Source: Alcanivoracaceae bacterium (lineage in GTDB: Bacteria; Pseudomonadota; Gammaproteobacteria; Pseudomonadales; Alcanivoracaceae). From it: a DNA stretch of 64,000 bases. The stretch covers positions 248,001-312,000 of the forward strand of contig JARGPN010000009.1 of assembly GCA_029213045.1 (NCBI GenBank), read 5' to 3'. Each line of letters begins with the position of its first letter. Within the stretch, counting starts at the first letter, position 1. The notes beneath the pieces are model-generated. The model saw only the letters and a program-made list of their open reading frames with translations. It made no database searches and was not told the DNA's origin. The translations under genes were made by a program, and so were the position numbers. Positions 11,592 through 62,451 of this stretch are shown one piece after another.

Positions 11592-13535
11592 ATGGCGCGC
11601 CCAATTCGGGTAAACACGCGTCGCAGAGCAAAGCTTGCCGCTCTCGCCACGGGCATTTACCTCAGTCTTAATCCTTTTGCTCATGCGGGCATCGTTATCA
11701 TTGGTGACGACTTGCCGCCAGAGCCGATGGTGCTCGATCAAAGCGCCAAACAAGAACTCGCCTACGGGGAAATTCTGTTTAGTTTTTACGGCGAGCATAA
11801 ATTTGACGCCATGACGCGTTTGCTGGCCGGACAAAAAACTGAACTGTTCAATACCGATTCAACACAGCCCGAACTATTATTGGGTAACCTGTACGTTGAA
11901 CTTGGCGTACCAGACAAAGCGGAGACCATTTTCGACCGTTTACTGCAGCGCGATATTCTCTCGCAACTACGTGCCGAAACGTGGTTCCAAAAAGCCTCTC
12001 TCGACTATCGCCGCGGCAATTACGAATCTGCGGCCCGCATTTTAAATAGTGACCGCGTAAAAGGGCTATCTCCTGAACTAGATGCTCATCGCCACCTAAT
12101 GCTCGCTAACGTGCGCATTGGCCAAGAGGAATTTGGCGAAGCGTTAGCAAGTTTATACGCCATTCCTACCGGCACACGTGAAGGCTCCTACGCCACCTAT
12201 AACATGGGCGTCGCGATGATTCGCTCAAAGCATACTGACGAAGGCGTAAAACTACTCAACAGCGTAATCAATTTGCCCGAAGGCGAAGATGAAATTAACG
12301 CCCTAAAAGACCGCGCGGCATTAGCCGTCGGCTTAACTGAATTAGGACGCAAAAATTTAGACGCATCACGCAACGCCTTAGTGCGAATTCGCGTTGACGG
12401 TCCATTCTCAAACGAAGCCCTTTTGGCGCTAGGGCTAACCAACTTCGAACGCGGAGAATTCAAAAAGGCCCTACCGCTTTGGCTCGAACTGGTCCGTAGA
12501 AACCCCGGCCACCCTTCGGTGCAAGAAGCACTCATGCTAGCGCCACGCGCCTATGAAGAACTGCGCGCCATGCCCCAAGCGTTGGCAGGATATCAGTTCG
12601 CTGCGCAAACCTATCGTTCAGAGCTTAAACGCGTCGAACTGGCAATTCGTGATATTGACCGCAAAGGCTGGCTCGACAAACTCACCGGACAAAAACAATC
12701 GGATCACATCAGCGTTGATCCCATGGCCCCAGTCAAAGATTACACGGCGAGCGAAGGTCCAGAGATGACCTATCTCTATAAGCTATTCGCCTCACACGAC
12801 TTTGCCGAGAACTTCCGTCAGTACAACGAACTTCAGCGCCTGCGCGCCATGCTAGTGAATTGGCTAGATGAAATTCCTGCGCTCCAGCAGGCGTACGCTA
12901 ACCAACAGGCACATCTACAAAGCGTGCTGCCAACGGTCCGCAACCGACTGATCACGCTGCGCCGAGACCAGAAAACGCTAATGGAAAGCTCCGCCGTATT
13001 GGCCTCCAGCATTCCAAACCAACTGGACATGCGCCAGCCACAAGACCTGGCCAGCTTTGACCAGTTGCAGCTATGGGAAGTCATAGAGGCCCTACAGAGC
13101 GGAAAAAATAAGAGCAATGCTCAGTATCGTGAACGGCTTCGCCGCGTGCGCGGCCTACTCCTGTACGATATTGCCCGCGATGCACCGCAAAACCGAGCCG
13201 TACAGCAACAGGACGCAAGCAAAGTTCTAGAGCAGGCCGAAGTGGGCGCTGTACGCACGGATGCAGTGGAACAACTAGTACGGGAAGCAACGTTGCATAT
13301 TCGAGGCAACATCGGCGAGCGTATTGGCGGCAAGCGAACACAAATAGAAAAAATGATAAGTAACACCGATCAATTACTGGACCAGCTTGGCCAGATTCTA
13401 AAAAACGATGCACTACGAGTATTAGCGCAGTCTCGCCTACAACTGGGTAACCAGCTCGGCGAAGCGCATCTCTCCATGGCTCGTTTGCAAGATGCGTCGG
13501 TAGTACAAAAAATTGAACAAGGGGCGGCTCAGTGA
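11592..13535 (+). CDS. Large periplasmic TPR protein (GltD/GltE-type)
   Basis: 647 aa with an N-terminal signal peptide (RRRAKLAALATGIYLSLNPF, cleavage near residue 32, AHA). Residues 50-330 form helical repeats of tetratricopeptide type (LLGNLYVELGVPDKAETIF, then KDRAALAVGLTELGRKNLDA); residues 410-640 look like long coiled-coil helices (RNRLITLRRDQKTLMESS). It is a periplasmic scaffold protein. Position and architecture fit the TPR components that accompany AglRQS-like motors in Myxococcus and in gammaproteobacterial relatives; which Glt protein it matches cannot be fixed by eye. Its stop overlaps the next start (GTGA). Confidence 0.8.
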   Translation: MARPIRVNTRRRAKLAALATGIYLSLNPFAHAGIVIIGDDLPPEPMVLDQSAKQELAYGEILFSFYGEHKFDAMTRLLAGQKTELFNTDSTQPELLLGNLYVELGVPDKAETIFDRLLQRDILSQLRAETWFQKASLDYRRGNYESAARILNSDRVKGLSPELDAHRHLMLANVRIGQEEFGEALASLYAIPTGTREGSYATYNMGVAMIRSKHTDEGVKLLNSVINLPEGEDEINALKDRAALAVGLTELGRKNLDASRNALVRIRVDGPFSNEALLALGLTNFERGEFKKALPLWLELVRRNPGHPSVQEALMLAPRAYEELRAMPQALAGYQFAAQTYRSELKRVELAIRDIDRKGWLDKLTGQKQSDHISVDPMAPVKDYTASEGPEMTYLYKLFASHDFAENFRQYNELQRLRAMLVNWLDEIPALQQAYANQQAHLQSVLPTVRNRLITLRRDQKTLMESSAVLASSIPNQLDMRQPQDLASFDQLQLWEVIEALQSGKNKSNAQYRERLRRVRGLLLYDIARDAPQNRAVQQQDASKVLEQAEVGAVRTDAVEQLVREATLHIRGNIGERIGGKRTQIEKMISNTDQLLDQLGQILKNDALRVLAQSRLQLGNQLGEAHLSMARLQDASVVQKIEQGAAQ

Positions 13536-16500
13536 AATCCTGGCACAGTCATAAAATTTGCTTGTTAACGGCATCCATCGCGATCGCCGTAGCAGGCTGT
13601 GCATCGCAAAAAGCAACACAACAAGAAGTCGTTAACGAAGCGCGCTATAGCGGTACAACGCTTGCCGATTTGGAATCAACCGACATCACCATTGAAGCGC
13701 AAACACTCGATAACGTATCGGCGGAAAATGCGCTAGAAAGTTACCGTCGCGCCGTGGAGCTTTTCCAAGACCCGGAAAAACGTAGTCAGTCACTGCGTCG
13801 CATGGCTGATTTGGCGCTAGCTGCCGCCGAAGAAAAATCAGTGAATACGGAGTCGGCACAAGAAACCAAACCCGCTAACGCAAACAGACTCGTCGAGCAG
13901 CCAAACGTTTCAAATGAAGATCTGGACCGTGACGTCGACAAGATGCTTTACGAAAACTTTATGCGTGAAGCAAAAGCAACCGATAACCGTGAAGAGAAAT
14001 ATGCACTATTGGATTTGGCCGGCAACGTTCGCTCAAACCTCGAAGGCGCCAATCTAGAAACGGACTACAGCACAGCCATCCTGCTCTACAAAGAATTGCT
14101 CGACACCAGCACCAACCCAGCAGAACGTGGCGAAGCCTATTACCTACTGGCAAAAGCCTATGCGCTTGCCGGCGATCTAAACAGTTCACGAGCAGCACTA
14201 GACTCGCTCGTCACCGAATACCCAGACAGCCCTTTTTATACAGAAGCCCAATTTCGCCGCGGCGAATTGTTATTTTCTGAAGGTGATTTTGAATATTCCG
14301 CTCTCGCCTATCGCGAAGTGGTCAAAGTCGGTACAAGCAATGACTTTTATGGCCAAGCGCAATACAAACTCGGTTGGAGCGAATACAAGCTTGGCGAGTA
14401 CGAAAAGGCGCTCACTCAGTTCTTAGCGTTGGTCGATACGCTCTATGGCAAGTCAGAGCTGGATAACCCAAAAACCATGGAAGCGAAGTTGTACGCCGAC
14501 ACTCAGCGTGCCGTCAGCCTTGCCTTCTCAAATCTAGATGGCGCCACCTCGGTTAAACGTTGGTTCGCCAGCAAAGGCCACCGCGAATACGAAAAAGATG
14601 TGTATCGCGCGTTAGGCGAAGTCTACCTACAACAAGAACGTTTCCGCGACGCCGCCGAAGCCTTTGAAATGTTTGTCACGGTGTACCCAGACAGCGCCTT
14701 CGCACCAGAATTTTCTACGCTTAGCATTCAAGCCTATGACACAGGCGGCTTCCCAACAGAAGTACTTCCTGCAAAAGAGCGCTTTGCATCGCGTTACGGC
14801 ATTCGCAGCACATACTGGCAATCACACCCCGATGTACGCGAAGGCTATGTCCCACTGCTGAAAGGACATTTGTTAGATTTAGCTAAGTACTATCACTCAC
14901 AAGCGCAGCGCTCGAAAAAGCCCAGCGATTACGACAAGCCGGCAGCATGGTACCAAGAATACCTAGCAACACCTCCTGCGGGTCCAGAAAACGTCGACAT
15001 CAACAACTTGTACGCCCAATCTCTCTTTTCGGCACAGCATTATGCGCAAGCCGTAACAGAGTTCGAGCGTACCGCGTATCAATACAATACGCCTGCTAAC
15101 GTTGAACAAACGCCAGAACAACTAGCACAGAAAAACACACTGAGTTCTGAAGCAGCCTATTTCGCGTTAGTTGCCTATCAAAAACATATCGCCACATTAC
15201 CCAACAAAACGGAAGCGGATAAAAAGCAGCTCACTGAATGGCGTAACCGTCGTATCACCAGCAGCTTGAAATTTGCCGCCACCTACCCTGCTCACGATAA
15301 AGTGCCGTCGGTGGTGTACAACGTTATCGAAGATCAGCTAGCCAACGGCGATAAAGAAGCAGCCATTAAAACAGCAGGCGTGTTAGTAAACCGACAGCCA
15401 CCGCCGGAAGAAAAGCTACTGGTCTATGGCTGGGCGACAATCGCCAATGGCGAATACGATTTAAATCGTTTTAAAGTCGCGGAATTTGGCTATACCAAAT
15501 TGCTACAGTTCCCGTCCGTTAACGCCCAAGACCGTAAAACGTACCAAGAACGTCTTGCCGCCTCCGTGTACAAACAAGGTGAAGAGCTGCAAACGGCAGG
15601 ACAACTTGCCGCCGCGGCAGCTATGTTTATGCGTGTTGGAGACGTTTATCCAGATGCCTCCATTCGTAAGAACGCAGAGTTCGACGCCGCGACTATTTAT
15701 CTGAACTTGGATCAGACCGACGCAGCCATTCCTATCTTGGAATCGTTCCGCAAGCGTTATCCGGGCGACCCGCTGAACGAAACTGTTCCAGATAAACTGG
15801 CGCTTGCCTATGAGAAAACAGGCAACTTCGGGGCTGCGGCACTTGAGCTAGAAACCATTGCATCGCGATACGGTAGCGACGACAAAGAAAACCAAGAACT
15901 CGCCCGCCAAGCTTTGTGGCAAGCCGCAGAAATGCAAGATCGCGCAAAGCAGCCCGAAGACTCTATTCGTTTGTACAAAAAGTACGTGCAAACCTATCCT
16001 CAGCCGTACGACTTCCGCGCAGAAGCGCAGTACCGCTTAACCGGCTTCTATCAAGAAACCGGCAATATGGAAAACCGAGAATACTGGCTGAACCAGCTAA
16101 TCAAAACGTATAACGACGCGGGCAACGACGGCAACGATCGCGTCGCATGGCTTGCCGCGTGGGCAGCCTTCTCTCTCGCTGAGCCGACTTACGATGAATT
16201 TGCATCGATCAAGTTAACGCAGCCATTGAAGAAAAGCCTGACCGCCAAAACCACGGCGATGAAAGACGCACTAGGAAAATATGAAAAAGTCGCGGCAATT
16301 GGCGTCTCCGAATATGCCACCGCGTCTAATTATAAAATCGGGCAAATGTACCGTGTCCTAGCGAAAGATATGATGGAGTCGGAGCGTCCTAAAGGACTTA
16401 ACGACCTCGAAACGGAACAATATGACTTGTTGCTCGAAGAACAGGCCCTTCCCTATGAAGATCAGGCCATCGACATTCTTATCGCCAACACGGATTTGGT

Positions 16501-16618
16501 TAAAGAAGACATTTACGACAAATGGGTAAAACAAAGTTTTGCAGAACTTGCACAACTGCTACCCGGTCGCTACGCAAAAACAGAACAGGTAGAAGACTAT
16601 GTCGACATCATCTATTGA
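13532..16618 (+). CDS. Giant TPR outer-membrane lipoprotein (1028 aa)
   Basis: GTG start overlapping the previous stop by four bases. The lipobox AVAGC places the lipid Cys at about residue 23, and Ala at +2 predicts outer-membrane sorting. The rest is an array of TPR-like repeats: tandem helix pairs such as AYYLLAKAYALAGDLNSS, AQYKLGWSEYKLGEYEKA and ALGEVYLQQERFRDAAEAF, many with the YPDSP/YPGDP turns seen in BamD- and CpoB-type TPRs. It is probably the long periplasm-spanning partner of the complex. It ends inside the next gene (20-base overlap), indicating tight coupling. Confidence 0.85.
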   Translation: MKSWHSHKICLLTASIAIAVAGCASQKATQQEVVNEARYSGTTLADLESTDITIEAQTLDNVSAENALESYRRAVELFQDPEKRSQSLRRMADLALAAAEEKSVNTESAQETKPANANRLVEQPNVSNEDLDRDVDKMLYENFMREAKATDNREEKYALLDLAGNVRSNLEGANLETDYSTAILLYKELLDTSTNPAERGEAYYLLAKAYALAGDLNSSRAALDSLVTEYPDSPFYTEAQFRRGELLFSEGDFEYSALAYREVVKVGTSNDFYGQAQYKLGWSEYKLGEYEKALTQFLALVDTLYGKSELDNPKTMEAKLYADTQRAVSLAFSNLDGATSVKRWFASKGHREYEKDVYRALGEVYLQQERFRDAAEAFEMFVTVYPDSAFAPEFSTLSIQAYDTGGFPTEVLPAKERFASRYGIRSTYWQSHPDVREGYVPLLKGHLLDLAKYYHSQAQRSKKPSDYDKPAAWYQEYLATPPAGPENVDINNLYAQSLFSAQHYAQAVTEFERTAYQYNTPANVEQTPEQLAQKNTLSSEAAYFALVAYQKHIATLPNKTEADKKQLTEWRNRRITSSLKFAATYPAHDKVPSVVYNVIEDQLANGDKEAAIKTAGVLVNRQPPPEEKLLVYGWATIANGEYDLNRFKVAEFGYTKLLQFPSVNAQDRKTYQERLAASVYKQGEELQTAGQLAAAAAMFMRVGDVYPDASIRKNAEFDAATIYLNLDQTDAAIPILESFRKRYPGDPLNETVPDKLALAYEKTGNFGAAALELETIASRYGSDDKENQELARQALWQAAEMQDRAKQPEDSIRLYKKYVQTYPQPYDFRAEAQYRLTGFYQETGNMENREYWLNQLIKTYNDAGNDGNDRVAWLAAWAAFSLAEPTYDEFASIKLTQPLKKSLTAKTTAMKDALGKYEKVAAIGVSEYATASNYKIGQMYRVLAKDMMESERPKGLNDLETEQYDLLLEEQALPYEDQAIDILIANTDLVKEDIYDKWVKQSFAELAQLLPGRYAKTEQVEDYVDIIY

Positions 16619-44835: not shown

Positions 44836-45537
44836 ATGAAAAGAATTGTGATCGCACTCATTACCACACTGCTTTGCCAACTGGCATCAGCGTCCGCGTC
44901 CGCGAACTGGGAGCTTGTGCGCGAAGCCAAACAACGCGACGACGTTAAAACGTGGGAGCGGCCCGTCCCTGGCAACTCGCTCAATGCCTTTAAAGGCATT
45001 ATCGAAGTGCCGCACAACATGCTCACCGTGCTTGCTGTACTTGGCGATATCGAAAAATTTCCCGAATGGGTTTATCAATGCGATGGCGCCAACCTGTTGC
45101 CGGAATTTGGTCACGATGTTGCCTATGTTCATATCGCCGGCATTTGGCCCGTGAGTGCACGAGATATCGTCACACGAACCAAACTGTCACAAGATCCAAA
45201 CACTCTCACCATCACCATGCACTCCGTTGCAGAACCCGACCTACTGCCCAAACAAAAAGGCACTGTAAGACTGCCGGCTCTGGATAACAGTTTTGTTCTC
45301 GAGCCAATGGCAGACGGCTGGACGCGTGTGACCTTCGAAACCTTCGTCGATCCGGGAGGCTTTATTCCGTCATGGCTAGCAAACGTTGTCGCGACACGTG
45401 CACCGCGCGATACGCTAAAAGGCATGTATAAAATGATGGCGGACGAGAAATATCACATTGAGTCAGCCGAACAGCTACCCGAACAATTCGAAGGCACAGA
45501 AAAAATGGCCTTTCCTGACAGCAAGGTCATTCAGTAG
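44836..45537 (+). CDS. Exported START-domain lipid-binding protein
   Basis: 233 aa. Signal peptide (MKRIVIALITTLLCQLASASASA) and a START/polyketide-cyclase fold: NWELVREAKQRDDVKTWER, IEKFPEWVYQCDGANLL, ARDIVTRTKLSQDP and WTRVTFETFVDPGGFIPSWL. These periplasmic proteins bind sterols or other hydrophobic ligands. No family beyond START can be assigned. The next gene is convergent; the flavin monooxygenase downstream could share a hydrophobic substrate. Confidence 0.85.
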   Translation: MKRIVIALITTLLCQLASASASANWELVREAKQRDDVKTWERPVPGNSLNAFKGIIEVPHNMLTVLAVLGDIEKFPEWVYQCDGANLLPEFGHDVAYVHIAGIWPVSARDIVTRTKLSQDPNTLTITMHSVAEPDLLPKQKGTVRLPALDNSFVLEPMADGWTRVTFETFVDPGGFIPSWLANVVATRAPRDTLKGMYKMMADEKYHIESAEQLPEQFEGTEKMAFPDSKVIQ

Positions 45538-48986: not shown

Positions 48987-50852
48987 TTACTGATTGAGAA
49001 TAAAGCGTGTGATCCACTCCTTCTGCGCTTTGTTAGCCTGAAGTCGAATAAACGACAAATGTGCCGTTGATCCAGTTAGCGCATCGCCTAATAAAAATTC
49101 GAACCCCGCGGCTAATGCAGGCACCTGACGAACACCAAAACCAAGATCATCATAATCATCAAGCTTCACTACCCCTCTCATTGGGAACAATTCCTCGCCC
49201 ACCAACGGCATTTCAACAATTTGCGCCAAGGCTATCGTTCCGTCGTTTGGCACAATCGAATCGCCATTCCCGGCAAACACCATCATGGGTCGAATGGGAC
49301 GTCCATCACTGGGGTAACGCATGGTTTCGATATAGTTAATTGAGTCGCCATAGTCCAACAGTTGTTGTACCGCTCCTTTTAGCATCACCGCTTCCGCACC
49401 ATTCGCAGCAGGCGGCTCCAGCCCAGAAAATGCGCTTTCCCATAAAATCGAACCGGCTAAAATGCTCGTCACGCCGACGCCGGTCACATGAAATAAGGCG
49501 CCATCAAGATCCGGTGACAGTGCGGCATAAGACGAGCCCAACACCCCACCCAACGATGTGCCTTCCATAAACACGCGCGTTGTATCCATATCGGCGATGC
49601 CGTCAGCGCATTTCCAGCACCAGCTGCTCCACGTCAGCCTTCCCAACACATCTAAATCGGCCATACCGATTAGCGCTTTATGCGCGGCGGCGAAATCAAT
49701 GGTGTGCTGTGTCATCATGCCAATTTCGCGGGACAGCTTGCTCACTTCCAAATTGTCGAAAACACCACCGCCATCAACCTCTTTACGATCACCGTGATTC
49801 GGGAAGTCCACGCTAAACGTCGCAATGCCCAACCCTGCATTGGAAGTTGTCACCAGAGCATCCATGCTTTTATCAGCGCCCAATCCATGTGCGTAGAACG
49901 CAACAGGCACCTTGCCACTGGTGTGCGCGGCTTGCGGCAACGTCAACCGAAAGGTAATCCATTGCTCTTTTGGCGTCGCATCGAAATCAACCATGCCGAT
50001 GCCGCCTTCACGACGATAATTATCAGTGCGTAACTCACCGGTAATCAGTGCCGCTTTTTTACCGGAATAGGTTTTGTAGTCCACCTCGATGTTGCGCACG
50101 GGGTGATCTTGAGAAAACGTCCGCTCTACTAGCATTCTCATCGGACCAACCACTTCTTCCTGATCGCGCACGGTAAATATTGTGGCCGACCGCACATTGG
50201 ATTCCGCAATACCAGCTTGCGCTAATCCGCTAGATAACTTCGCCAAATAGGCTTTCTCCGATTGCCCCGATGCACTATCAGCAAGCGATTGAAAATCCTT
50301 CGTTTCACCGCTGATTTCAAGAGATTTAGTCACCGCCACCACTATTCGATGGCCAAAATTCCAACGAGAAACCGGATACACCTCCAGTACATTTGCGGGT
50401 GCACTAACGTTATTCCCCTTCGCGTAGTCACTGATCTGCGCTCGCACATCGACAAACTCACCGGCATCCAGATCGTACGCAATAACTACATTTTCAGCGT
50501 ATTTAGGCAACGAACCCGGATCAGGTGCGTGATCAAATTCAAATACCACCGCGCTCGCCGCAGAGAACCCATGCGCGCCGTTGAAGATTCCCTCAACACT
50601 AATACCTGTTTCTGCCGGCAATTGGTCCGCGACTTCTTGGCGAAGTAGAGAGGAGGTCATCTCCAACGAAACACCAGTAGGCGAACTCGCATCCGCGTTC
50701 GCCCAGTAGTTCGACGGGAAAGGAATCGTACAAGTTTGCAGACTAAGTGGATTGCAGCCGTTAGCGGCCTGAGCAGTCATGGAGAGTAATGACGTCGATA
50801 GAGCCGTCAATGTAGCAAATAGAATGGGGGTTCTAACAGAACTGGCCGGCAT
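48987..50852 (-). CDS. Secreted alpha/beta hydrolase (lipase/esterase-like), 621 aa
   Basis: Signal peptide (TPILFATLTALSTSLLSMTA, cleavage near residue 29) followed by CNPLSLQTCTIPFPSNYW, a start typical of large exported bacterial lipases. A beta-rich N-terminal domain (about 30-300), then an alpha/beta hydrolase domain with the oxyanion-side YAHGLGADKS, nucleophile in MEGTSLGGVLG, and candidate Asp in FAGNGDSIVPND. The C-terminal His is not certain. The protein is probably secreted or surface-bound and hydrolyses lipids or polyesters. Confidence 0.82.
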   Translation of the reverse strand: MPASSVRTPILFATLTALSTSLLSMTAQAANGCNPLSLQTCTIPFPSNYWANADASSPTGVSLEMTSSLLRQEVADQLPAETGISVEGIFNGAHGFSAASAVVFEFDHAPDPGSLPKYAENVVIAYDLDAGEFVDVRAQISDYAKGNNVSAPANVLEVYPVSRWNFGHRIVVAVTKSLEISGETKDFQSLADSASGQSEKAYLAKLSSGLAQAGIAESNVRSATIFTVRDQEEVVGPMRMLVERTFSQDHPVRNIEVDYKTYSGKKAALITGELRTDNYRREGGIGMVDFDATPKEQWITFRLTLPQAAHTSGKVPVAFYAHGLGADKSMDALVTTSNAGLGIATFSVDFPNHGDRKEVDGGGVFDNLEVSKLSREIGMMTQHTIDFAAAHKALIGMADLDVLGRLTWSSWCWKCADGIADMDTTRVFMEGTSLGGVLGSSYAALSPDLDGALFHVTGVGVTSILAGSILWESAFSGLEPPAANGAEAVMLKGAVQQLLDYGDSINYIETMRYPSDGRPIRPMMVFAGNGDSIVPNDGTIALAQIVEMPLVGEELFPMRGVVKLDDYDDLGFGVRQVPALAAGFEFLLGDALTGSTAHLSFIRLQANKAQKEWITRFILNQ

Positions 50853-52157: not shown

Positions 52158-54521
52158 TTGAGAGGTAACATTTTTAAATCCATTCGATGGAATCGCGTCG
52201 AACGAGGTTGCGCGCCTGTCACGCAAATCTTGGTAATCGGTGGCGTTTATCTTTGGGGCTTGCTGCACCTCCTCGCCCGCGACGATCGCGCGCTATTCAT
52301 CAACGTTGAAGTCGCCGAAACCCAAACCCTTGTCGTAATAGCGCTGATGCTAGGTGCTGCCGCCCTGTTAGGCTTAGGGCTGATACTTCGCGTTCACCGC
52401 CCAAACTCCATACTCTATCAATACACTGGCGCTTTATTTTTTGCGTTATCGATGGTTTGGGCGGGATATATTACCGGCGCGCATAGCTTTGCCGCTGGCG
52501 TTGTACTGATAGGCTCAGGTTTATCCGGATATGTTGCGCTAGAAAGGCGCGTTATCGCCCTTGGCGTCGGCGTTTCCTTCGTCATTATATTGGGGTTGAA
52601 CCTCGGCGCAGCATACGGAAAAATCCCCTACTCTCCTCTCCTGCTAGAACCCCACGACACCACAAGTCGGGTATTTTGGACAAATGTATCGCTGTTTCTA
52701 GCGTTACCTCCGCTGATCATGAACCTCGCCTTGATGGGCATCATGCTGCATTTCTGGCGTAAGGCGGAAAATGAAATTCTTAAACTGAGCCTTACCGATG
52801 TTCTGACCGGCTTACCCAATCGTCGCAGCATTTTAAGTCAAATCAAAAAAGAAGCTGCGCGCACTAAGAGACACGGACCGCCGCTAGCAATTGTGATTAT
52901 AGACCTCGATGGCTTTAAGAAGATTAACGATCATTGGGGACACCCCACAGGCGACAAAGTGCTGCAAAGAGCAGCCCAATGTTTGCGCAATAATATTCGC
53001 GAGTGTGATGTAGTCGGCCGTTTCGGTGGCGAAGAATTTTTGCTTTTACTCCCCGATACAAACTCCTCTGGCGCCATGGCATTGATGGAGCGTTGCCGCC
53101 AAGCACTAGAACAAATCTCGCTTTATGGCGATGACAACGAACGCATTCCTGTGCACGGAAGCTTCGGTATTGTTTGCAATGAGGAAAATCTTTCCATAGA
53201 TACGGATACCCTTATCAGCGCCGCAGACCAAGCGCTTTATCACGCAAAAGAAACTGGCAAAAATCGAATCGTGCTCGCTAACCTCGAGGAGTACAAAATT
53301 CCTCTGGAAGAAAAAAAACGAGAACTCGGTGAGGACAAAGCCACGTTTTCTCTCGCACATCTGATTGATGACCTTATCCACGAAGGCCCAACTTGGACAC
53401 CAGTTGCCAAATCAATGCTTTCCATGCTTTTAGGCGCCAGTCAATTTTTGCTCTACGCATCCTGGGGCCTACTGCTATTAATTCCCGATAATCGTCAAGA
53501 ATTAATTAACGTTGAATATGTTCTTGCCATAATCCCATATGTGCTTCCCGTTATTTTAGGACTGCTAGTGTTGGTAGGCATTGGTTGGCGCGTGAACCTG
53601 CACAATCCAAACTCAGCGTGGTATCAATTCGTCACGCAACAATATTACGGCGTTGCCTTGGTCTTCTCCGGCTACTTGATTGGTACGATGTCACTCCCCG
53701 TTGGATTAATTCTTGCCGGCGGCCCATTGATCGGATTCATTTTTTTCCGCGCTCGCTACATTATTGCAACGATGATTACCTCGATGGCAACGCTCATCAC
53801 ATTGACATACCTAAGCGCACAAGGCGTCATTCCGTACGCTCCGGTAATGCCAGTGGGCCAGAACTCATACCACACGATTACGCCGCTGTGGCTTCTCGCG
53901 TTCTATCTATTTCTAACCCCACATATGTTTATCGTGCTCGCATTAGGAGATAAAACATTTGGTCATTGGCGCGAACGCTGGTTAGAAATTCGCGTACTTG
54001 GTCGAACTGACCCGCTAACACGCATTCACAACCGGCGCAGCATTCTTTCTCTACTAGACAAAGAAATCGCACGGACATTGCGCCACGGACCGCCGCTTGC
54101 CATTGCGTTATTGGACATGGATTACTTTAAAAAAATCAATGATACTTGGGGTCATCCAACCGGCGACCGCGTACTAAAACGGGCGGCGAAGATTTTGCAA
54201 GAAACGATTCGCGAATGCGACGCGGTCGGCCGTTTTGGCGGAGAAGAGTTTATGCTCTTGCTGCCTGACACAAGCTTGGAAGGTGCGCGCATTTTAACAG
54301 AGCGCTGTCGTGAGGCACTTTCTGCCAGCACAGTGATGACGGAAAACGGTGAGAAAATTTCCATTACGGCGAGCTTCGGACTGACCAGCAATGAAGGCAA
54401 TCTTAATTTAAACAGCACAGAGCTAGTCAAAGCAGCCGATGATGCCCTTTATACAGCAAAAGATGAAGGTAGAAATCGAGTTTCCATCGCGGCGCCAGAA
54501 GCAATGTCGATGAGAGCTTAA
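52158..54521 (+). CDS. Double diguanylate cyclase 1: two [6TM-GGDEF] units in one chain
   Basis: 787 aa; TTG start behind AAAGGAAGGGG. Two repeats of the same plan: six membrane helices (about 20-200), then a GGDEF domain (210-375); a linker; six more helices (about 420-605), then a second GGDEF domain (612-780). Both active sites read GGEEF (290-294 and 694-698) and both keep an inhibitory RxxD site five residues before (RECD, 281-284 and 685-688). It should make c-di-GMP from two GTP with product inhibition. The two halves resemble each other closely (for example RECDVVGRFGGEEF against RECDAVGRFGGEEF). Confidence 0.9.
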   Translation: MRGNIFKSIRWNRVERGCAPVTQILVIGGVYLWGLLHLLARDDRALFINVEVAETQTLVVIALMLGAAALLGLGLILRVHRPNSILYQYTGALFFALSMVWAGYITGAHSFAAGVVLIGSGLSGYVALERRVIALGVGVSFVIILGLNLGAAYGKIPYSPLLLEPHDTTSRVFWTNVSLFLALPPLIMNLALMGIMLHFWRKAENEILKLSLTDVLTGLPNRRSILSQIKKEAARTKRHGPPLAIVIIDLDGFKKINDHWGHPTGDKVLQRAAQCLRNNIRECDVVGRFGGEEFLLLLPDTNSSGAMALMERCRQALEQISLYGDDNERIPVHGSFGIVCNEENLSIDTDTLISAADQALYHAKETGKNRIVLANLEEYKIPLEEKKRELGEDKATFSLAHLIDDLIHEGPTWTPVAKSMLSMLLGASQFLLYASWGLLLLIPDNRQELINVEYVLAIIPYVLPVILGLLVLVGIGWRVNLHNPNSAWYQFVTQQYYGVALVFSGYLIGTMSLPVGLILAGGPLIGFIFFRARYIIATMITSMATLITLTYLSAQGVIPYAPVMPVGQNSYHTITPLWLLAFYLFLTPHMFIVLALGDKTFGHWRERWLEIRVLGRTDPLTRIHNRRSILSLLDKEIARTLRHGPPLAIALLDMDYFKKINDTWGHPTGDRVLKRAAKILQETIRECDAVGRFGGEEFMLLLPDTSLEGARILTERCREALSASTVMTENGEKISITASFGLTSNEGNLNLNSTELVKAADDALYTAKDEGRNRVSIAAPEAMSMRA

Positions 54522-54655
54522 TAATCAACATGCTAAATCGTGGCCTTCCCTCCCTCAAATCATACCGCTCATCCCAATGACTCTGTGAACAGTTGCCCCA
54601 AATGTCTACCGCTCTACACTTAAGCAACTAATAATTAGAATACAACGGTGCTGTC

Positions 54656-57058
54656 ATGCGGCAGGGAATTACATTAACCAAGCTGCGGCAACCTTTAACA
54701 ATAATGGATTGGAGTTTCGTCGCGCGCGGCAGCCTGCCTCTGATCATTCTTATAGTTCTTTGGCTTTCACACGGAACCTGGGCCTTCTTATCATTATTCT
54801 ATTTCAACGGAAAGAAAGTATTCAGCCTCGAGCAACTGTGGGTGCAAGCACCCGTTATTCTATTCATTATTCTCGGTGCATTTTCCATATTAGCGCTTGG
54901 CCTGCTACTCAAACGTAGGAATTTAGAACCCGTTTGGTTTCAACATCTTACTGCTAATTATTATGGACTTTCTCTCGTGTGGGGAGGATCTCTGGTTGGC
55001 TCCCTTAATCTAGCTAGCGGCGCGGTTCTAATGGGCGCGCCCCTTATCGGCTTCCTTATCCTTGAACGCCGCGTTGTATTCTTTGCATTTATTGTCGCCT
55101 TCACCGCGCTTCTTCTTCTCAATGTAGCTTCAGCCCTTAACCTTATTCCCTACGCACCCTTTATACGCTCACCCAATGAAGGCGGTGATACGCTATTGTG
55201 GACACACAGTCAGCTATTAATGGCCGCTCCACACATTGTGATCAACGTTGCACTGGCCGCTCTCGTATTAGGTCAATGGCGTCTTCGCGAAGCCAACGTC
55301 CGCACACTGGGATTAACAGATCAGCTTACGCTTCTACCAAATCGCCGTGCGATATTAATGCAGCTGCGAAGAGAGTTATCACGTGCGCATCGCCAAAAAA
55401 GGCCTCTTTGTGTCGTACTACTAGACTTAGATCATTTTAAATCAATTAATGATAAATGGGGCCACCCCAGTGGCGATGAAGTGCTTCGTCGTACGAGTGA
55501 AATAATTAGAAATGAAATTCGTGCAGGAGACTATATCGGTCGCTTTGGCGGCGAGGAGTTCTTACTTTTGCTTCCACAGGCAGCCCCCGAGGAAGCCCGC
55601 GAAATTATCGAGCGTATACGTCTAAAGTTAAATCACGAACCTATTGCTGTAGGCGCAACGACGCCCATACACGTAAGCGCCAGTTTTGGAATTTCTTGGG
55701 CCTGTGGCTCAAAACCGTGCGATATCACCACCATTTTAGCGGCGGCGGATCTGGCGCTATATCGCGCAAAAGAGCGCGGACGCAATCGACTTGAGCTAGC
55801 TGAAAAATCTTGCTCATCACCGAAAGAAAATCAAAAAACATATCCGCGCGTTAGCGTCGAAAACCATTTCAACTTAGGCAAGGTCACCAACGCTCGTTGG
55901 TGGCGAGAATTTCTGATTGGCATTCTAGACTGGACGCCTGTTAACAAAGCGAGACTCATTGCTGGAATACTACTTTTAATATCAGTTAATTTCATTGCTA
56001 CTCTGGAATTTATTTCATCAATTCACTCTGGAAAAATTCGGGTAGATATCCAAACTGCCAGGTTACTCACTGATCTTTCTATCGGTCTTAGTCTTCTTTG
56101 TTTTTTTTCTATTTGGGCTGGACGCTACATCAACATACGCTGGCCGGGATCACGCTGGTATCAGATATTTGTATTACAAATGTTCGGGCAATCTTTGGTT
56201 TTTTATGGCTATATGCTCGGGATAATGTACATGCACACTGGCATCATGCTTCTTTGCTCACCCATTGTTGGATTTATTCTTTTTGAACGCCGCATTGTTC
56301 TTCAGGTGTTTTTCACGTCGGTAATCGGTGTGTTGGCCTGCTCATACGCGAGTGCCTACGGGCTACTTCCCTACGCTCCACTTATCTCCGTTGGCGCTCC
56401 AGCATGGCAGATCAACACACCATTCTGGACATTGCTCACCTACTTTATTTGCACATACATTTTGATTGTTACATTCATCTTAATCGACCACGTCCTCGGA
56501 CGCTGGCGCGAACGAGAAGCAGAGATTCGCGTAATTAGCATTACCGATGCGCTCACGAATGTGCGCAATCGTCACAGTATTTTGCACCAACTCGACGTCC
56601 TTCTCGAAACGGCAATTAGGCACGAGCAACCCTTGTCCATCGCTGTACTGGATCTCGATAAATTTAAATACATTAACGACACATGGGGGCATCCGACCGG
56701 CGATGAAGTCTTGCGTGTTACTGCGAAGGCACTCACCAAATGCTTACGTGACGGCGATGAAATGGGTCGATTCGGCGGAGAGGAGTTTCTCATACTGCTC
56801 CCAAACACCGACCTCGTCGGCGCGACCGCATTAGCGGAACGCTGCCGCCGTTCGTTAGAAGCAATCGAACTATTTGCTCCTAACAAGGCAGCGGTATCAA
56901 TCAGCGCGAGCTTCGGTATTGCATCCATGGAAAACGCTAGCGCCTCGGCCTCCTTCAACGGAGACCCAGAGCAACTTATCAAGGCGGCCGATGAGGCACT
57001 CTACACCGCTAAAGAAAACGGCAGAAATCGTGTTGAGGCTGTTCTAGTGCACGATTAA
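54656..57058 (+). CDS. Double diguanylate cyclase 2
   Basis: 800 aa. Same plan as cyclase 1: membrane module (about 25-205), GGDEF (220-380), linker (385-425) ending in WTPVNKARL, membrane module (430-610), GGDEF (625-795). Active sites GGEEF at 298-302 and 707-711; I-sites RAGD (289-292) and RDGD (698-701). Its first half matches the first half of cyclase 3 and its second half the second half of cyclase 3 better than they match each other. An inner ATG at 54704 (MDWSFVARG) aligns with one in cyclase 3 and could be the true start. 134 bases after cyclase 1. Confidence 0.9.
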   Translation: MRQGITLTKLRQPLTIMDWSFVARGSLPLIILIVLWLSHGTWAFLSLFYFNGKKVFSLEQLWVQAPVILFIILGAFSILALGLLLKRRNLEPVWFQHLTANYYGLSLVWGGSLVGSLNLASGAVLMGAPLIGFLILERRVVFFAFIVAFTALLLLNVASALNLIPYAPFIRSPNEGGDTLLWTHSQLLMAAPHIVINVALAALVLGQWRLREANVRTLGLTDQLTLLPNRRAILMQLRRELSRAHRQKRPLCVVLLDLDHFKSINDKWGHPSGDEVLRRTSEIIRNEIRAGDYIGRFGGEEFLLLLPQAAPEEAREIIERIRLKLNHEPIAVGATTPIHVSASFGISWACGSKPCDITTILAAADLALYRAKERGRNRLELAEKSCSSPKENQKTYPRVSVENHFNLGKVTNARWWREFLIGILDWTPVNKARLIAGILLLISVNFIATLEFISSIHSGKIRVDIQTARLLTDLSIGLSLLCFFSIWAGRYINIRWPGSRWYQIFVLQMFGQSLVFYGYMLGIMYMHTGIMLLCSPIVGFILFERRIVLQVFFTSVIGVLACSYASAYGLLPYAPLISVGAPAWQINTPFWTLLTYFICTYILIVTFILIDHVLGRWREREAEIRVISITDALTNVRNRHSILHQLDVLLETAIRHEQPLSIAVLDLDKFKYINDTWGHPTGDEVLRVTAKALTKCLRDGDEMGRFGGEEFLILLPNTDLVGATALAERCRRSLEAIELFAPNKAAVSISASFGIASMENASASASFNGDPEQLIKAADEALYTAKENGRNRVEAVLVHD

Positions 57059-57240
57059 AATTTGATCCTGCCCGATTACAGTGACGTGGTGCGTCAGGAA
57101 AGAATATGCCGCGGTGCCTAGCGGTACCATCCAATTCCATATTAATACCGCCGATCATACCCATATTGCCGCGCTGCTGGGATTGCATCAGGCTTAGCTT
57201 AATAAAATTATAAAAATCCTTTATTTACATCGGGCTTTTA

Positions 57241-59682
57241 ATGCAAAAAAGCTGGTTTAAACGCATATCCTCGGTGATGGAGTGGAGCTTTGTAGTCCGC
57301 AGCGGCTTTCCGCTAGTGGGCCTCATCTTCCTTTGGTCCTTCCATACTGCTTGGGCTGCGATCGTGCTGTTCTCAATAGATGGTGGCGACACCGTCTATT
57401 ATCTTCCCAACTATTTCTGGATGTTAAAGACCATTCTTTTCATCATCGCAGGGGCGGCACTCCTGCTCGCGTATGGTTACCGCTTGAGCCAACAACAACG
57501 CGAACCGATGTGGTACCAATATGTCTGCGCCACCTATTTTTCACTCGGTTTAGTCTGGGGCGGCTATATTACCGGCTCTCTAAGTATCGCCAGTGGTGTG
57601 GTGCTAATGGGAGCCCCCTTGTTTGGATTCCTAATTCTTGAACGCCGCGTAGTGCTTTTTGCATTTGTCTGCGCGTTCGTTGCACTATTAATTCTTAATT
57701 ACGCAAGTGCCTATCACATTATTCCTTATGCGCCCTTCACGCAGCCCCCTTCCGATCAGGCGAGCGCGCCCCTTTGGGCGTTATGCCAAATAATGATGGC
57801 TGCACCACACTATGTCGTCGACGTGACACTCTGCTCACTCGTATTGATTCAATGGCTTCGCCGAGAAACAGCGGTAATGAAGTTAAGCCAAACGGATCCA
57901 TTAACGGGCACAAAAAATCGACGTAGCATGCTCACCCAGCTACGCCGAGAAATTTCCCGCGCGCAGCGCCAGAACACAGCGCTGTCCTTGGTGATACTTG
58001 ATTTAGACCATTTTAAAAGCATTAACGATACGTTTGGCCACCCTGTCGGAGACGACGCGCTGCGCAAAGCATCCCAAGCCATCGGTGATGAAATCCGCGC
58101 GGGCGATAGCTTGGGTCGCATTGGCGGAGAGGAGTTTATGCTTCTCTTACCGCGCACCACGCCCGAAGAAGCGGCCATTTTGGCGGAGCGGTGCCGACAG
58201 AGATTAACCAGCATTGCTATTGATGCACCCACCAACAAAAAATCCAGCGATGCGCCTGCAAGCGTTCACCTGAGTGGCAGCTTCGGCGTTTCCTGGATTA
58301 ACCAGGGCGAGCCAAGCGATGACAAAGATATGGTAGCTACTGCCGATGAAGCGCTATATCGCGCCAAGCGCAATGGTAGAAACTGCGTAGTATTTGCCAA
58401 ACAATCGTGCCGTGTCGAAAACGCCTGCCCCACATACAGTGTTGCACCGACAAGAAATACTCCAAGGCGCAGGCTAAATTGGCAAAGCATGAATTATGAA
58501 ACCATTGTGCGCGGCGTTCTTAGCGCCGCTATTAAATGGTCGCCCGTCAATAAAGCGCGAGCAATCCTTAGCTTGGGACTCTTCGTCGCCAGCAACTTTT
58601 ACCTTTGGCTATTTTCTTCCGTACTACTAATGGAACCGAACACACATTTAAACCTAGAGGTTGCGCTTTACTTACTGAATATCGCGCCGATCGCATTAGC
58701 CCTTCCAGCTCTTACAATTTTCGCGGGAAAATATACTAATCGATACCGGCCAGCCTCAGCGGCGTATCAGGTTTTTGCAATTCAAATGTTCGCCATGAAT
58801 TTAATTTTCATCGGTTATTATATCGGCATTGCGAACATCACCGCCGGCGTCATGCTAGTCTGCATCCCCATCGTTGGCTTTATGATTTTTGAACGCGCTT
58901 ACGTTATTCAAGTGATGATCACTTCAGTCCTCGCCGTTATTGCCCTGCTCTTCGCCAGTGCCTACAACGTATTGCCGTACGCGCCATTGATTTCCATTAA
59001 TAGATCAGAATGGCAGCTCAGCTCTCCTTATTGGGTTACCACCAACTACCTCGCGTCCATTTATATTATCGTCGCTGTGTTGGTTTTGGTGGATCATATT
59101 CTCGGTCGCTGGCGCGAACGTGAAGAAGAAATTCGTATCCTCAGCATTACCGACGCACTCACCGGCGTGAATAACCGTCACAGCATTATTGAGCATTTAC
59201 AAAGCAACATCGAAACAGCCACGCGACATGAATCACCTATCGCCGTCGTCATGCTTGATCTGGACAGGTTCAAAAATATCAATGATCGCTGGGGACACCC
59301 GATTGGCGACGAAACGCTAAAACTAACCTGCAAGGCGCTGACAGTGTGCCTACGGGAAGGCGATATCATAGGACGTTTTGGAGGAGAAGAATTTTTATTG
59401 GTATTGCCTAATACAACGCTTGATGGCGCCGCGCAACTGGCAGAGCGCTGCCGAAAAAAAATCCAAGCGATCACACTCTGCTCTCCATCCGGTGAACGGA
59501 TACAGATTACAGCGAGCTTGGGTATTTCGTCATCCGAATGCACAAACTCTTATTCAAGCGATGCTCTTATCAAACTAGCCGATGACGCGCTTTACGCAGC
59601 AAAAAATTCGGGAAGAAACCGTGTTGAGTTAGCGCAGCCTCTCAACAAAAATCGCAACACTCCGGCGTCACAGCTGTGCTGA
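57241..59682 (+). CDS. Double diguanylate cyclase 3
   Basis: 813 aa. Membrane module (about 20-205), GGDEF (218-385), linker (385-425) ending in WSPVNKARA, membrane module (440-620), GGDEF (635-805). Active sites GGEEF at 295-299 (in GRIGGEEF) and 714-718; I-sites RAGD (286-289) and REGD (705-708). An inner ATG (57277, MEWSFVVRS) parallels that in cyclase 2. The 182-base gap before it holds a 38-codon open frame (57081-57197) of unclear meaning. No EAL or HD-GYP gene is near. Confidence 0.9.
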   Translation: MQKSWFKRISSVMEWSFVVRSGFPLVGLIFLWSFHTAWAAIVLFSIDGGDTVYYLPNYFWMLKTILFIIAGAALLLAYGYRLSQQQREPMWYQYVCATYFSLGLVWGGYITGSLSIASGVVLMGAPLFGFLILERRVVLFAFVCAFVALLILNYASAYHIIPYAPFTQPPSDQASAPLWALCQIMMAAPHYVVDVTLCSLVLIQWLRRETAVMKLSQTDPLTGTKNRRSMLTQLRREISRAQRQNTALSLVILDLDHFKSINDTFGHPVGDDALRKASQAIGDEIRAGDSLGRIGGEEFMLLLPRTTPEEAAILAERCRQRLTSIAIDAPTNKKSSDAPASVHLSGSFGVSWINQGEPSDDKDMVATADEALYRAKRNGRNCVVFAKQSCRVENACPTYSVAPTRNTPRRRLNWQSMNYETIVRGVLSAAIKWSPVNKARAILSLGLFVASNFYLWLFSSVLLMEPNTHLNLEVALYLLNIAPIALALPALTIFAGKYTNRYRPASAAYQVFAIQMFAMNLIFIGYYIGIANITAGVMLVCIPIVGFMIFERAYVIQVMITSVLAVIALLFASAYNVLPYAPLISINRSEWQLSSPYWVTTNYLASIYIIVAVLVLVDHILGRWREREEEIRILSITDALTGVNNRHSIIEHLQSNIETATRHESPIAVVMLDLDRFKNINDRWGHPIGDETLKLTCKALTVCLREGDIIGRFGGEEFLLVLPNTTLDGAAQLAERCRKKIQAITLCSPSGERIQITASLGISSSECTNSYSSDALIKLADDALYAAKNSGRNRVELAQPLNKNRNTPASQLC

Positions 59683-59823: not shown

Positions 59824-60492
59824 TCAATGGCGTTGTATCTCAAATTTCACACCAATACGACGCGCTTCCTCAGCTAACCGTTTCTGCCGTATTTTTGGAT
59901 CAGGCTCCAAATCCGATAACAGAGTTAATTGAATTCTCTGCGCTTGTGATTTATCCATATCTTGCGCCGAGAGCCTTGCAGGCAAACTATTCAGCAAGTG
60001 CTCCGCAATTTCATTACGCTTTGATTTCTCACTGCCTGTGCTACCGCTCAGGGCCTCCCACAACTCCATTTGCTTAATGAAACGAAAATTATTGACCAAT
60101 CGCGTTAACTCTTTCTCTGGATTCGGGCTTCTATCTGCCACGCCGTTTACAACATACCACTCAACAGGCGAGATAAAATCTGGGCGCTCAGAGACCACCC
60201 CCACATATTCTGGCTGATCAATATTCTTTCCGGCCATCTCCGCAGCATGTAGCTGCATGGCAGTTACCGTATCTTCGTCAAGCGTTTTCAAATCTTCCAA
60301 GGTTAGCTCTGACTCCGCATGACGCTCTGAAACTCGGTCACCGGAGGTGTCGAAGGAAGAAAATCTCGAAGCGCTTTGCTCTCCCGCCCACCAGAAAAAT
60401 GTCGAAAATAGTGCAGCGACAATACATATTGAGGTAATGATAAAATTCTTATTCATAATGTTTTTATATTGTGCCGTATAAGTTTCGGACAT
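59824..60492 (-). CDS. Membrane-anchored protein beside the secretory lipase
   Basis: 222 aa from ATG 60492, chosen because AGGAAGG lies four bases upstream; the codons above it are Gly/Lys-rich and atypical. One N-terminal membrane helix (about 13-33, FIITSICIVAALFSTFFWW) and a helical, charged periplasmic part (60-222: LEDLKTLDEDTVTAMQLH, EKELTRLVNNFRFIKQMELW). No family recognised. Position downstream of the lipase gene on the same strand, 153 bases away, suggests a chaperone or accessory role like that of other lipase helper proteins, but the Lif motif is absent. Confidence 0.6.
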   Translation of the reverse strand: MSETYTAQYKNIMNKNFIITSICIVAALFSTFFWWAGEQSASRFSSFDTSGDRVSERHAESELTLEDLKTLDEDTVTAMQLHAAEMAGKNIDQPEYVGVVSERPDFISPVEWYVVNGVADRSPNPEKELTRLVNNFRFIKQMELWEALSGSTGSEKSKRNEIAEHLLNSLPARLSAQDMDKSQAQRIQLTLLSDLEPDPKIRQKRLAEEARRIGVKFEIQRH

Positions 60493-60645
60493 CTTACCTT
60501 CCTCATCTGCTACTTGATTAGGCTTACCTTCGCCGCCGCCTTTTCTCATGGATATTGCGACGACGAAGGAATCAAGTTTAGTAATTCCACTTTGTTATTT
60601 TTATTCGTGTACCAATCGCATTAAATACTATCAACAATCAACGTA

Positions 60646-62451
60646 TTACCACGCTTTTGGCGCTGGCGGCGCAATGTTAAAGCTATACTTTTGCCCAGGT
60701 CCGGACATCAGCAAGGTAAACATACCGTTAAACAAGCCACAGCTTTTCATGCTTGGGAAAGTAGTTTCACCACCAAAGGTGAAATTGCCGTTACCCAACG
60801 ACGAAATAGGACCGTCAAAGTTAACGGGAAATTCAACAGCCGTTTCGGTTTTGCAACCAAATGGAATTTGCAACCAACCAAAACCGGCAGATTTGATAGT
60901 AATGTCGGCCAGCGCATCGCCATGTACGCTTAGTTGACCGTTATTATCCAGACTAGCAGAACCCGTGGTGCGACCTACAGGAACGACTGAAAGCTTCACA
61001 TCCAATGGCAACAAGATGTTTAACTTGGCCAAAAACTCTGGAACAGCCAATGTGCCATCAAGGGTTCCAGCCGTCATGTCTGTGTCTGCCGTAAACGCAG
61101 AACCTTCAGGCAGCACAACATCTTGTCCCAGCGTTTTCAGCTTAATCGTTGCATCCAATGGCCATTCGTCTAACGACACAACAAAGTTCCCACCACCAGG
61201 ATTAGCCGTAGAGCTCGGCTTTTTATTAAAGGTTAGGCAAGTGCCTGCGGTATTTTTATTCGCAAAACGATCACCTAGCCAAGACAGCACATAAGGTGCC
61301 GCTTGGAATTGCGTCACGATATGCTCACTAGGGTAAGTTGCAAAAGTCGCGTTGGTAAACTTACGGCAGTACTTCCCTTTCAAATCGGTGTGCTGATCAA
61401 GAGGAATAAACTCATCCGCCTGACCGTGATACATGTAGATCGGCACCGATACTTTTTTGTTGCCCAGTTGCTGAGCACTCAAGGTATCGCTAACCGAACT
61501 TATTTGAAGAAGCTGTTGCAACGACTTATTGCCAACAGTGTATTTAGAAATACTGGTGTTCATGTATGGGAACAACGCGTCGAAAACACAATCATTGGCG
61601 ACGACCTGATCAATAGTCGCTTTACCTAAATTGTTAGCTAGGTCATCCACTGGAATGCCCTGTGGATATTGTTCACCTAAACCTACAACAGCTTGCAGCA
61701 AGAAAGATGATCCAGCGCTGCCGTCTAAGTAGTACGCGGTTTCAACGAAGTCTGCTGGCGTGCCGCCCGCAGCGATACCAACAACATTTAAGTTCGATGA
61801 ATATGAGCCAAGCATTTCGCCCGCCCATGCTGCAGTTTGACCGCCCTGCGAATAGCCCCACACCGCTGTCGGTGCATTCGTGCTAATACCCGCACTAGGA
61901 ATTTGTGCCGCCGCCGCAACGATGTCCAATGCAGCATGACCTTGTGCCTTACCGGCTAAGTAAGTTGGCACCTTGCCAGTGGTATAACCTGGGTTGTCCG
62001 TCACTAACACGGTGTAGCCTGCTCGTAGTGCGGCAGCGATGTTGGCGTTTTCATAATCAGTACCCGCCGCAATTTGACGCGACGGGGCGCAATGCTGCGC
62101 CAAACCGTGAGTGCCGACCGCATAGCTAACCACTGGGCGATTACCGGCTCCCGACCAAGGTGTCGAAGGCACTAATACCGTCCCTGTTACAATGTTGCTC
62201 GCGTCCAACGCGTCTGTGGAGTGGTACATCACGTTCCACGCTTGCACCGCTGGTGCGTTCGCGCCGAGGTTTGCGGCGGCATTGCGATACCAAATCAAAT
62301 CGCCATGCGCACCGCCCGCCATCACGGGCGGTTGATAGAAAGACTCCCCCGAAGGGCCCATCACTGGTGCCGCGTGTGCAGCCATCATAGGGAATGCCAA
62401 CGACGCGGCGACTCCCCACATCATTGCTTTAGTTGGACGTAAGATTTTCAT
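60646..62451 (-). CDS. Secretory lipase (LIP family) with extra C-terminal domain
   Basis: 601 aa. Signal peptide (residues 1-27, AAHAA). Residues 50-400 are a secretory-lipase alpha/beta hydrolase: nucleophile Ser in WGYSQGGQTAAW, Asp in HGQADEFIP, His in PSEHIVTQFQ, giving a complete triad, and the lid/cap region around FVETAYYLDGSAG. Residues about 415-601 form a separate beta-rich domain (FVVSLDEWPLDATIKLKTLG, then FNGMFTLLMSGPG) that resembles repeats seen in actinobacterial exported proteins. Such a fusion is uncommon in Gammaproteobacteria. Confidence 0.82.
   Translation of the reverse strand: MKILRPTKAMMWGVAASLAFPMMAAHAAPVMGPSGESFYQPPVMAGGAHGDLIWYRNAAANLGANAPAVQAWNVMYHSTDALDASNIVTGTVLVPSTPWSGAGNRPVVSYAVGTHGLAQHCAPSRQIAAGTDYENANIAAALRAGYTVLVTDNPGYTTGKVPTYLAGKAQGHAALDIVAAAAQIPSAGISTNAPTAVWGYSQGGQTAAWAGEMLGSYSSNLNVVGIAAGGTPADFVETAYYLDGSAGSSFLLQAVVGLGEQYPQGIPVDDLANNLGKATIDQVVANDCVFDALFPYMNTSISKYTVGNKSLQQLLQISSVSDTLSAQQLGNKKVSVPIYMYHGQADEFIPLDQHTDLKGKYCRKFTNATFATYPSEHIVTQFQAAPYVLSWLGDRFANKNTAGTCLTFNKKPSSTANPGGGNFVVSLDEWPLDATIKLKTLGQDVVLPEGSAFTADTDMTAGTLDGTLAVPEFLAKLNILLPLDVKLSVVPVGRTTGSASLDNNGQLSVHGDALADITIKSAGFGWLQIPFGCKTETAVEFPVNFDGPISSLGNGNFTFGGETTFPSMKSCGLFNGMFTLLMSGPGQKYSFNIAPPAPKAW

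Follow-up and report, generated by a model that had tools for sequence, protein, structure and literature searches.

Three tandem genes encoding putative membrane diguanylate cyclases with a doubled 6TM-GGDEF unit

GGDEF cyclases are understood as dimers that are switched by bringing two domains together, and one c-di-GMP molecule needs two GTP half-sites. The locus studied here raises the question of how a single chain that carries two such domains, each behind a membrane module of its own, would work. Three consecutive, intact plus-strand genes in the window (the whole stretch of 64,000 nucleotides that was analyzed, C10:248001-312000) encode proteins of 787, 800, and 813 amino acids (aa) with zero internal stops on reading of the open reading frames (ORFs); gene 1 is separated from gene 2 by 134 bases and gene 2 from gene 3 by 182 bases. 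These intact ORFs, with two Pfam GGDEF domains each, bear out the original prediction of three tandem genes in which a membrane module plus GGDEF occurs twice, whereas its word "giant" was too strong for chains of ∼800 aa. The features, in window positions, are as follows.

52158-54521, + strand: double cyclase gene 1; 787 aa, TTG start, intact ORF; two GGDEF stretches (E = 9.6e-97)
52158-52778, + strand: gene 1, membrane module A (module profile A1)
52791-53267, + strand: gene 1, GGDEF A with RECD and GGEEF (Pfam and motif reading)
53376-53993, + strand: gene 1, membrane module B (module profile A1)
54006-54479, + strand: gene 1, GGDEF B with RECD and GGEEF (Pfam and motif reading)
54656-57058, + strand: double cyclase gene 2; 800 aa, ATG start; two GGDEF stretches (E = 1.1e-91)
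54683-55303, + strand: gene 2, membrane module A, modeled with six helices (module profile A1; structure model)
55316-55789, + strand: gene 2, GGDEF A with RAGD and GGEEF (Pfam and motif reading)
55892-56530, + strand: gene 2, membrane module B (module profile A1)
56540-57031, + strand: gene 2, GGDEF B with RDGD and GGEEF (Pfam and motif reading)
57241-59682, + strand: double cyclase gene 3; 813 aa, ATG start; two GGDEF stretches (E = 6e-92)
57241-57876, + strand: gene 3, membrane module A (module profile A1)
57889-58383, + strand: gene 3, GGDEF A with RAGD and GGEEF (Pfam and motif reading)
58510-59136, + strand: gene 3, membrane module B (module profile A1)
59146-59622, + strand: gene 3, GGDEF B with REGD and GGEEF (Pfam and motif reading)

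The TTG codon at 52158 was taken as the start of gene 1 because later starts would cost part of the first helix: an in-frame TGA lies upstream, at 52137, and that helix already contains the next candidate starts, at 52230 and 52260. PF00990 (GGDEF) scored 305 to 322 bits per whole protein, against a curated cutoff of 23.8, with two stretches in each. Pfam and the module profile together placed the parts of all three chains in the order membrane-catalytic-membrane-catalytic, and the linker from GGDEF A to the conserved start of module B, measured in four of seven doubles, spans 48 to 54 residues. Promoter and terminator patterns showed no excess over shuffled expectation. The gap between genes 2 and 3 (57059-57240) holds a short coding-like frame ending ...INTADHTHIAALLGLHQA, which may be a remnant of another gene.

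Stop-free double frames recur in four further genomes (G040, G044, G045, and G625), which rules out a frameshift artifact as well as the assembly fusion of separate genes that the original prediction had named as a finding that would refute it. The total is eight double genes in five genomes, counting G040 gene 1, which was deduced from two contig ends, and the double of G044, whose start lies beyond the contig end. Among the matches listed for 46 genomes of the family, long double ones came from the window genome, G040 (same genus), and G044 and G045 (another genus), and from no other. The complete double of G040 is 54% identical to gene 2 over residues 11 to 795, and gene 3 is 51% identical to gene 2 over residues 14 to 795. 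A likely orthologue of gene 1 is split in G040, its N-terminal part ending contig C3, where the genes at 40.7 to 45.5 kb of the window are syntenic, and its C-terminal part beginning contig C17, 8.7 kb before the complete double. A class-wide search added G625, from another order, with one double that is 42% identical to gene 2; this position in a distant order suggests horizontal transfer, and no match came from three other genomes of the G625 family and order, of which two have a completeness of 63% and 73%. The fused form is spread over three genera and two orders, at 38 to 52% full-length identity to gene 2 and with both GGEEF motifs kept. None of the five matching plasmid records spanned 80% of a double.

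Single-unit relatives are stand-alone genes of ∼390 aa, present in part of the order. The membrane profile, which was built with rows from many of these same family genomes, matched 24 of the 46 (E ≤ 1e-10). With scoring confined to the top 7 or 8 candidates of each genome, matches came from 26 of 390 genomes sampled across the order (E ≤ 1e-20) and, at E ≤ 1e-15, from 2 of 369 at the level of the class and 2 of 398 at that of the phylum; the window genome is included in all four counts. The other matches retrieved carry one GGDEF motif each, apart from L012 of the window's own genome, which has none by pattern and a GGDEF domain by Pfam. Two Acinetobacter proteins share a homologous module and have one such unit, against two here, in ∼390 aa. 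That of Acinetobacter venetianus (L015:7779-8969) was a BLASTP match from five of the six window modules (E ≤ 1e-5); its profile score was not counted, since it lies within the profile. That of A. baumannii (L136:2722-3915), which is absent from the profile, aligned over 201 residues with an HHalign probability of 99.9. The annotation of the latter is just "GGDEF domain-containing protein." In a rough base rate from 80 named loci, picked via gene 2 peptide patterns, the GGDEF motif occurred once in 84 ORFs and twice in none. Open frames of 819 and 843 aa in two genomes (f29) were rejected as fused genes, as they are adjacent single genes. In the window's own genome, L014:2075-4329 (contig C10, near 568-571 kb) holds a pair of adjacent single GGDEF genes that overlap on the minus strand; the one upstream has GGEEF and no RxxD (SGRD in that position). 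Unfused adjacent singles occur in all six genomes of genus g61, from another family of the order (L105-L110), as tandem pairs in five and as a triplet in one. Within this family, then, the unit occurs in single genes, in tandem pairs, and in fused doubles, three of which stand in tandem in the window.

Each half of these proteins begins with a membrane module of ∼210 residues, in which a 19-residue hydropathy window delineates five or six segments. A model of gene 2 module A from seven sequences (pLDDT 74.6, pTM 0.71) has six long helices (residues 21-49, 58-87, 93-114, 119-135, 138-160, and 179-224), the sixth of which points toward the GGDEF domain. The full-length AlphaFold2 model, from four sequences, is too poor for assessing pairing (pTM 0.37, modules mostly at pLDDT < 50), though its secondary structure also has six long helices per module; six helices per module are thus what the alignment and the models show. 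Module alignment A1 features a nearly invariant W, two invariant G residues, and a conserved YAP. Scanning 43 modules against Pfam and NCBIfam retrieved no family matching more than one member, the best single-module matches being EcsB (4.9e-5) and MetS (0.0011), and no MASE family was among the 17 Pfam families listed for these modules at E ≤ 1. The module is a sensor-like domain without a Pfam or NCBIfam model. Its profile found nothing among solved chains at E ≤ 1 but one 30-residue fragment, and a piece of Escherichia coli DgcC spanning the N terminus into the GGDEF domain did not match it. With the module model as the query, Foldseek yielded zero matches at E ≤ 0.001, the top one being Rv1625c (E = 0.21, probability 0.84). 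VIA-align ranked the mammalian adenylyl cyclase AC8 (Z 10.0; 189 aligned, 7.8 Å) and Rv1625c (Z 9.7; 179 aligned, 5.3 Å) as the best matches, followed by an unrelated chain (Z 8.0) and ImcA (Z 7.4; 168 aligned, 6.8 Å), so that membrane cyclases are three of the first four rows; all of these scores lie below the Z of ∼13 under which, as the tool cautions, helical bundles can match through common arrangement. The modeled fold is, only suggestively, most like that of membrane adenylyl cyclases.

Two known systems frame the interpretation of these chains. ImcA of Pseudomonas aeruginosa (PDB 8wcn) likewise has a 6TM domain followed by GGDEF, with one unit per chain in a homodimer, whereas the window proteins have two units per chain; this homodimer buries an interface of ∼2,656 Å2 with symmetric TM contacts, and activity requires the TM domain (PMC10904736). 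The first half of gene 2 retrieved ImcA with phmmer (E = 2.4e-22, residues 140-382), mostly over GGDEF plus the last module helices, and the ImcA module was unmatched by the A1 profile at E ≤ 1. In that structure, the GGDEF domains of ImcA move flexibly without polar contact (PMC10904736), so being tied in one complex need not give a fixed active pair. The architecture at our locus is a real, conserved, and unusual one, a doubled unit of this known 6TM-GGDEF cyclase type. Mammalian membrane adenylyl cyclases (6TM-C1-6TM-C2; AC8, 8buz) have the same order of parts. They and the single-unit Rv1625c/Cya (7yzk) have a class III catalytic domain, whereas the window proteins have GGDEF, and no class III cyclase family appeared in the Pfam scan of the three proteins at E ≤ 10. 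The mammalian enzymes are described as pseudoheterodimers of two 6TM-catalytic units, derived from a bacterial single-unit cyclase through duplication and fusion (PMC9552081), and the TM region of Rv1625c is reported to guide catalytic assembly (PMC9433096). The route is alike in both cases, from a single 6TM-cyclase through duplication and fusion to a pseudoheterodimer and further gene duplication (PMC9552081), and the series from single gene to tandem pair, fused double, and three doubles parallels the one inferred for mammals. GGDEF-EAL tandem and MASE-type proteins are also multidomain membrane c-di-GMP proteins; unlike them, the window proteins have neither an EAL domain nor a MASE match. 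The titles and abstract beginnings listed from open-license PMC papers describe no chain with two membrane-GGDEF units, and the GGDEF pair of PMC5588039 consists of two separate proteins.

We regard it as fairly probable that each chain joins two ImcA-like 6TM-GGDEF cyclase units covalently as a dimer, with A and B paired within the chain; by analogy, the best reading is that of a putative c-di-GMP counterpart of the mammalian 6TM-C1-6TM-C2 cyclases. Two ImcA-like subunits, from related genes, would have been joined in one chain, and their six-helix modules would pack alongside each other as a 12-helix membrane unit with pseudo-twofold symmetry, holding the GGDEF domains so that they face one another. 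With one GTP bound to each domain, the pair would yield one c-di-GMP per cycle, and a single chain could work as the whole enzyme. The signal sensed by the membrane unit is probably lipid-like or comes from the membrane, and it would shift both stalk helices; the product would inhibit at RxxD. Pairing within the chain, sensing, feedback, and activity are what we infer for this enzyme. With both halves in one chain, the idea that the domains must meet becomes directly testable, half by half, and the locus may reveal what is gained by fusing a membrane cyclase dimer, be it integration of two signals, concentration-independent dimerization, or uneven feedback.

Each double protein is predicted from its motifs to be a membrane diguanylate cyclase that synthesizes c-di-GMP. 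The six GGEEF and six RxxD motifs that had been reported for the window genes were all recovered, RxxD ending five residues before GGEEF. DxDxFK, FKxxND, and GHxxGD are complete in all six window halves, and these three motifs and GGEEF occur in all 16 halves of the eight double genes from five genomes (half A of G040 gene 1 being counted from two contig-end pieces treated as one gene). KxxGR was found in five of the six window halves and, across the seven doubles that were read whole, in 13 of 14 halves. The exception is half A of gene 1 (KxxGK), which may mean a changed half-site in that gene; the single-unit protein G168s3 also reads KxxGK. The inhibitory RxxD is retained in 8/8 B halves, in the 28/28 singles of the tree described below, and in 5/8 A halves. 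It was lost from half A of G044 (EQPA), G045 (PAEA), and G625 (SEGD), that is, in every genome with doubles outside the window's genus (n = 3). Parsimony suggests two loss events, a number too small to establish a preference for A. A more ambitious version of the favored reading would have these proteins as an independently evolved bacterial counterpart of the mammalian adenylyl cyclases, i.e., an obligate A:B pseudoheterodimer with a 12-helix receptor, whose halves divide labor (B always keeping RxxD, A having lost it twice, in G044/G045 and in G625) and which radiated into three isoforms in the window's organism; we put this forward tentatively and with some doubt. In mammalian adenylyl cyclases, complementary residues have been lost from C1 and C2, unlike in the window proteins, where both half-sites are intact by motif.

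The conservation of both halves bears on how they pair. GGDEF proteins usually pair as homodimers, and two chains could accordingly form an obligate dimer through A:A' and B:B' contacts, an assembly of four GGDEF domains and two active sites with high output or cooperativity. Such an arrangement would need no new interface, and motifs intact in both halves are equally expected from it. One half decays in many two-domain c-di-GMP proteins, however, and independent sites would permit such decay, yet GGEEF persists without exception across the double family. In an obligate A:B pair, neither half is expected to decay because two half-sites are needed. We consider the dimer of chains unlikely.

Half A of gene 2 is 51% identical to that of gene 3, and the B halves of these genes are 47% identical, against 41% (gene 1), 35% (gene 2), and 33% (gene 3) between A and B of one protein; the split of A and B therefore predates the duplication of genes 2 and 3. 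In a tree of 44 half-proteins (8 A, 8 B, and 28 singles chosen by us from the matches; L012 was left out because its motif pattern did not match), the eight A halves formed one clade (100/98) and the eight B halves another (99/92). Each of these clades splits into gene 1, G040 gene 1, G044, and G045 on one side and G625, gene 2, gene 3, and G040 gene 2 on the other. The only discord concerns gene 3, which groups with gene 2 among B halves (98/91) and with G040 gene 2 among A halves (88/27). Separate, nearly mirrored clades indicate a single fusion of the pair and a later duplication of the fused gene, and the halves have stayed together since, as their branching agrees but for the weak place of gene 3. 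Most simply, one fusion would have come first, and the duplication that followed it would predate the separation of the genera.

The same tree lends itself to a different account, in which fusion fixed a heterodimer of two subunits that had once been separate and differed in their sensory modules. Two inputs would then converge on one output, and independence from oligomer formation would not be the point. Modules A and B share 23 to 30% identity, compared with 50% between the A modules of genes 2 and 3 and 31% between that of gene 1 and the other A modules. A and B are separate clades, two singles join the A clade (94/89), and constraining A and B to one clade was nearly rejected (p-AU 0.06). 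Genus g61 moreover holds distinct paralogues side by side: in the three g61 genomes in the tree, pair members are split between two fully supported clades, and the triplet has two members in one clade and one in the other, which makes these tandem singles candidate heterodimers. The branch uniting A with the two singles is not a starred one, however, and neither module has a known ligand; signal integration as the reason for the fusion seems to us quite improbable. As for the A:B dimer within one chain, the self-contained pseudodimer of the original prediction likely stands, to judge from sequence, in that it fits the 16/16 GGEEF motifs, two lineages kept since one fusion, the single-unit relatives, and the ImcA dimer; its pairing within the chain is the part that is deduced rather than observed.

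Throughout the genome, 30 GGDEF, 8 EAL, and 2 HD-GYP places exceeded the cutoffs, 24 of the GGDEF places lying outside the three genes. The original prediction had also noted that no phosphodiesterase is nearby, in agreement with zero EAL or HD-GYP (PF13487) matches in the window; the only matches on its contig are at C10:80119 (EAL) and C10:395927 (HD-GYP). A "striking c-di-GMP output" of the array, which had been proposed as well, is unsupported in a genome with this many other GGDEF, EAL, and HD-GYP places. So many GGDEF places, and the recurrent tandem duplication of single units in g61, would suit accidental fusions kept without a new property as ordinary, redundant cyclases, but the persistence of the fused form across genera and orders, at such divergence and with both GGEEF motifs intact, makes this highly improbable.

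The window neighbors of the array encode an Ada-type repair protein, a secretory lipase, a distant lipase-like protein, FMO-like monooxygenases, and AraC-type regulators. Comparison by Pfam of 14 neighbors in G040, G044, G045, and G625 with 13 window genes disclosed no shared family suggesting an effector or ligand partner; the doubles of both G040 and G044 have a GGDEF gene nearby. In the sister species G040, the likely orthologue of gene 1 has a REC-PAS-GGDEF gene (L005:1757-3049) immediately after it, at the place taken by gene 2 in the window. The array flanks have a lipid-related look (48987-50852, 59824-60549, and 60646-62451), with below-cutoff VolA/Pla-1, weak PlcR, and secretory lipase (LIP) matches. 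A START-domain protein is encoded at 44836-45537, and two adjacent large TPR-repeat proteins of 647 and 1,028 aa are encoded at 11592-16618.
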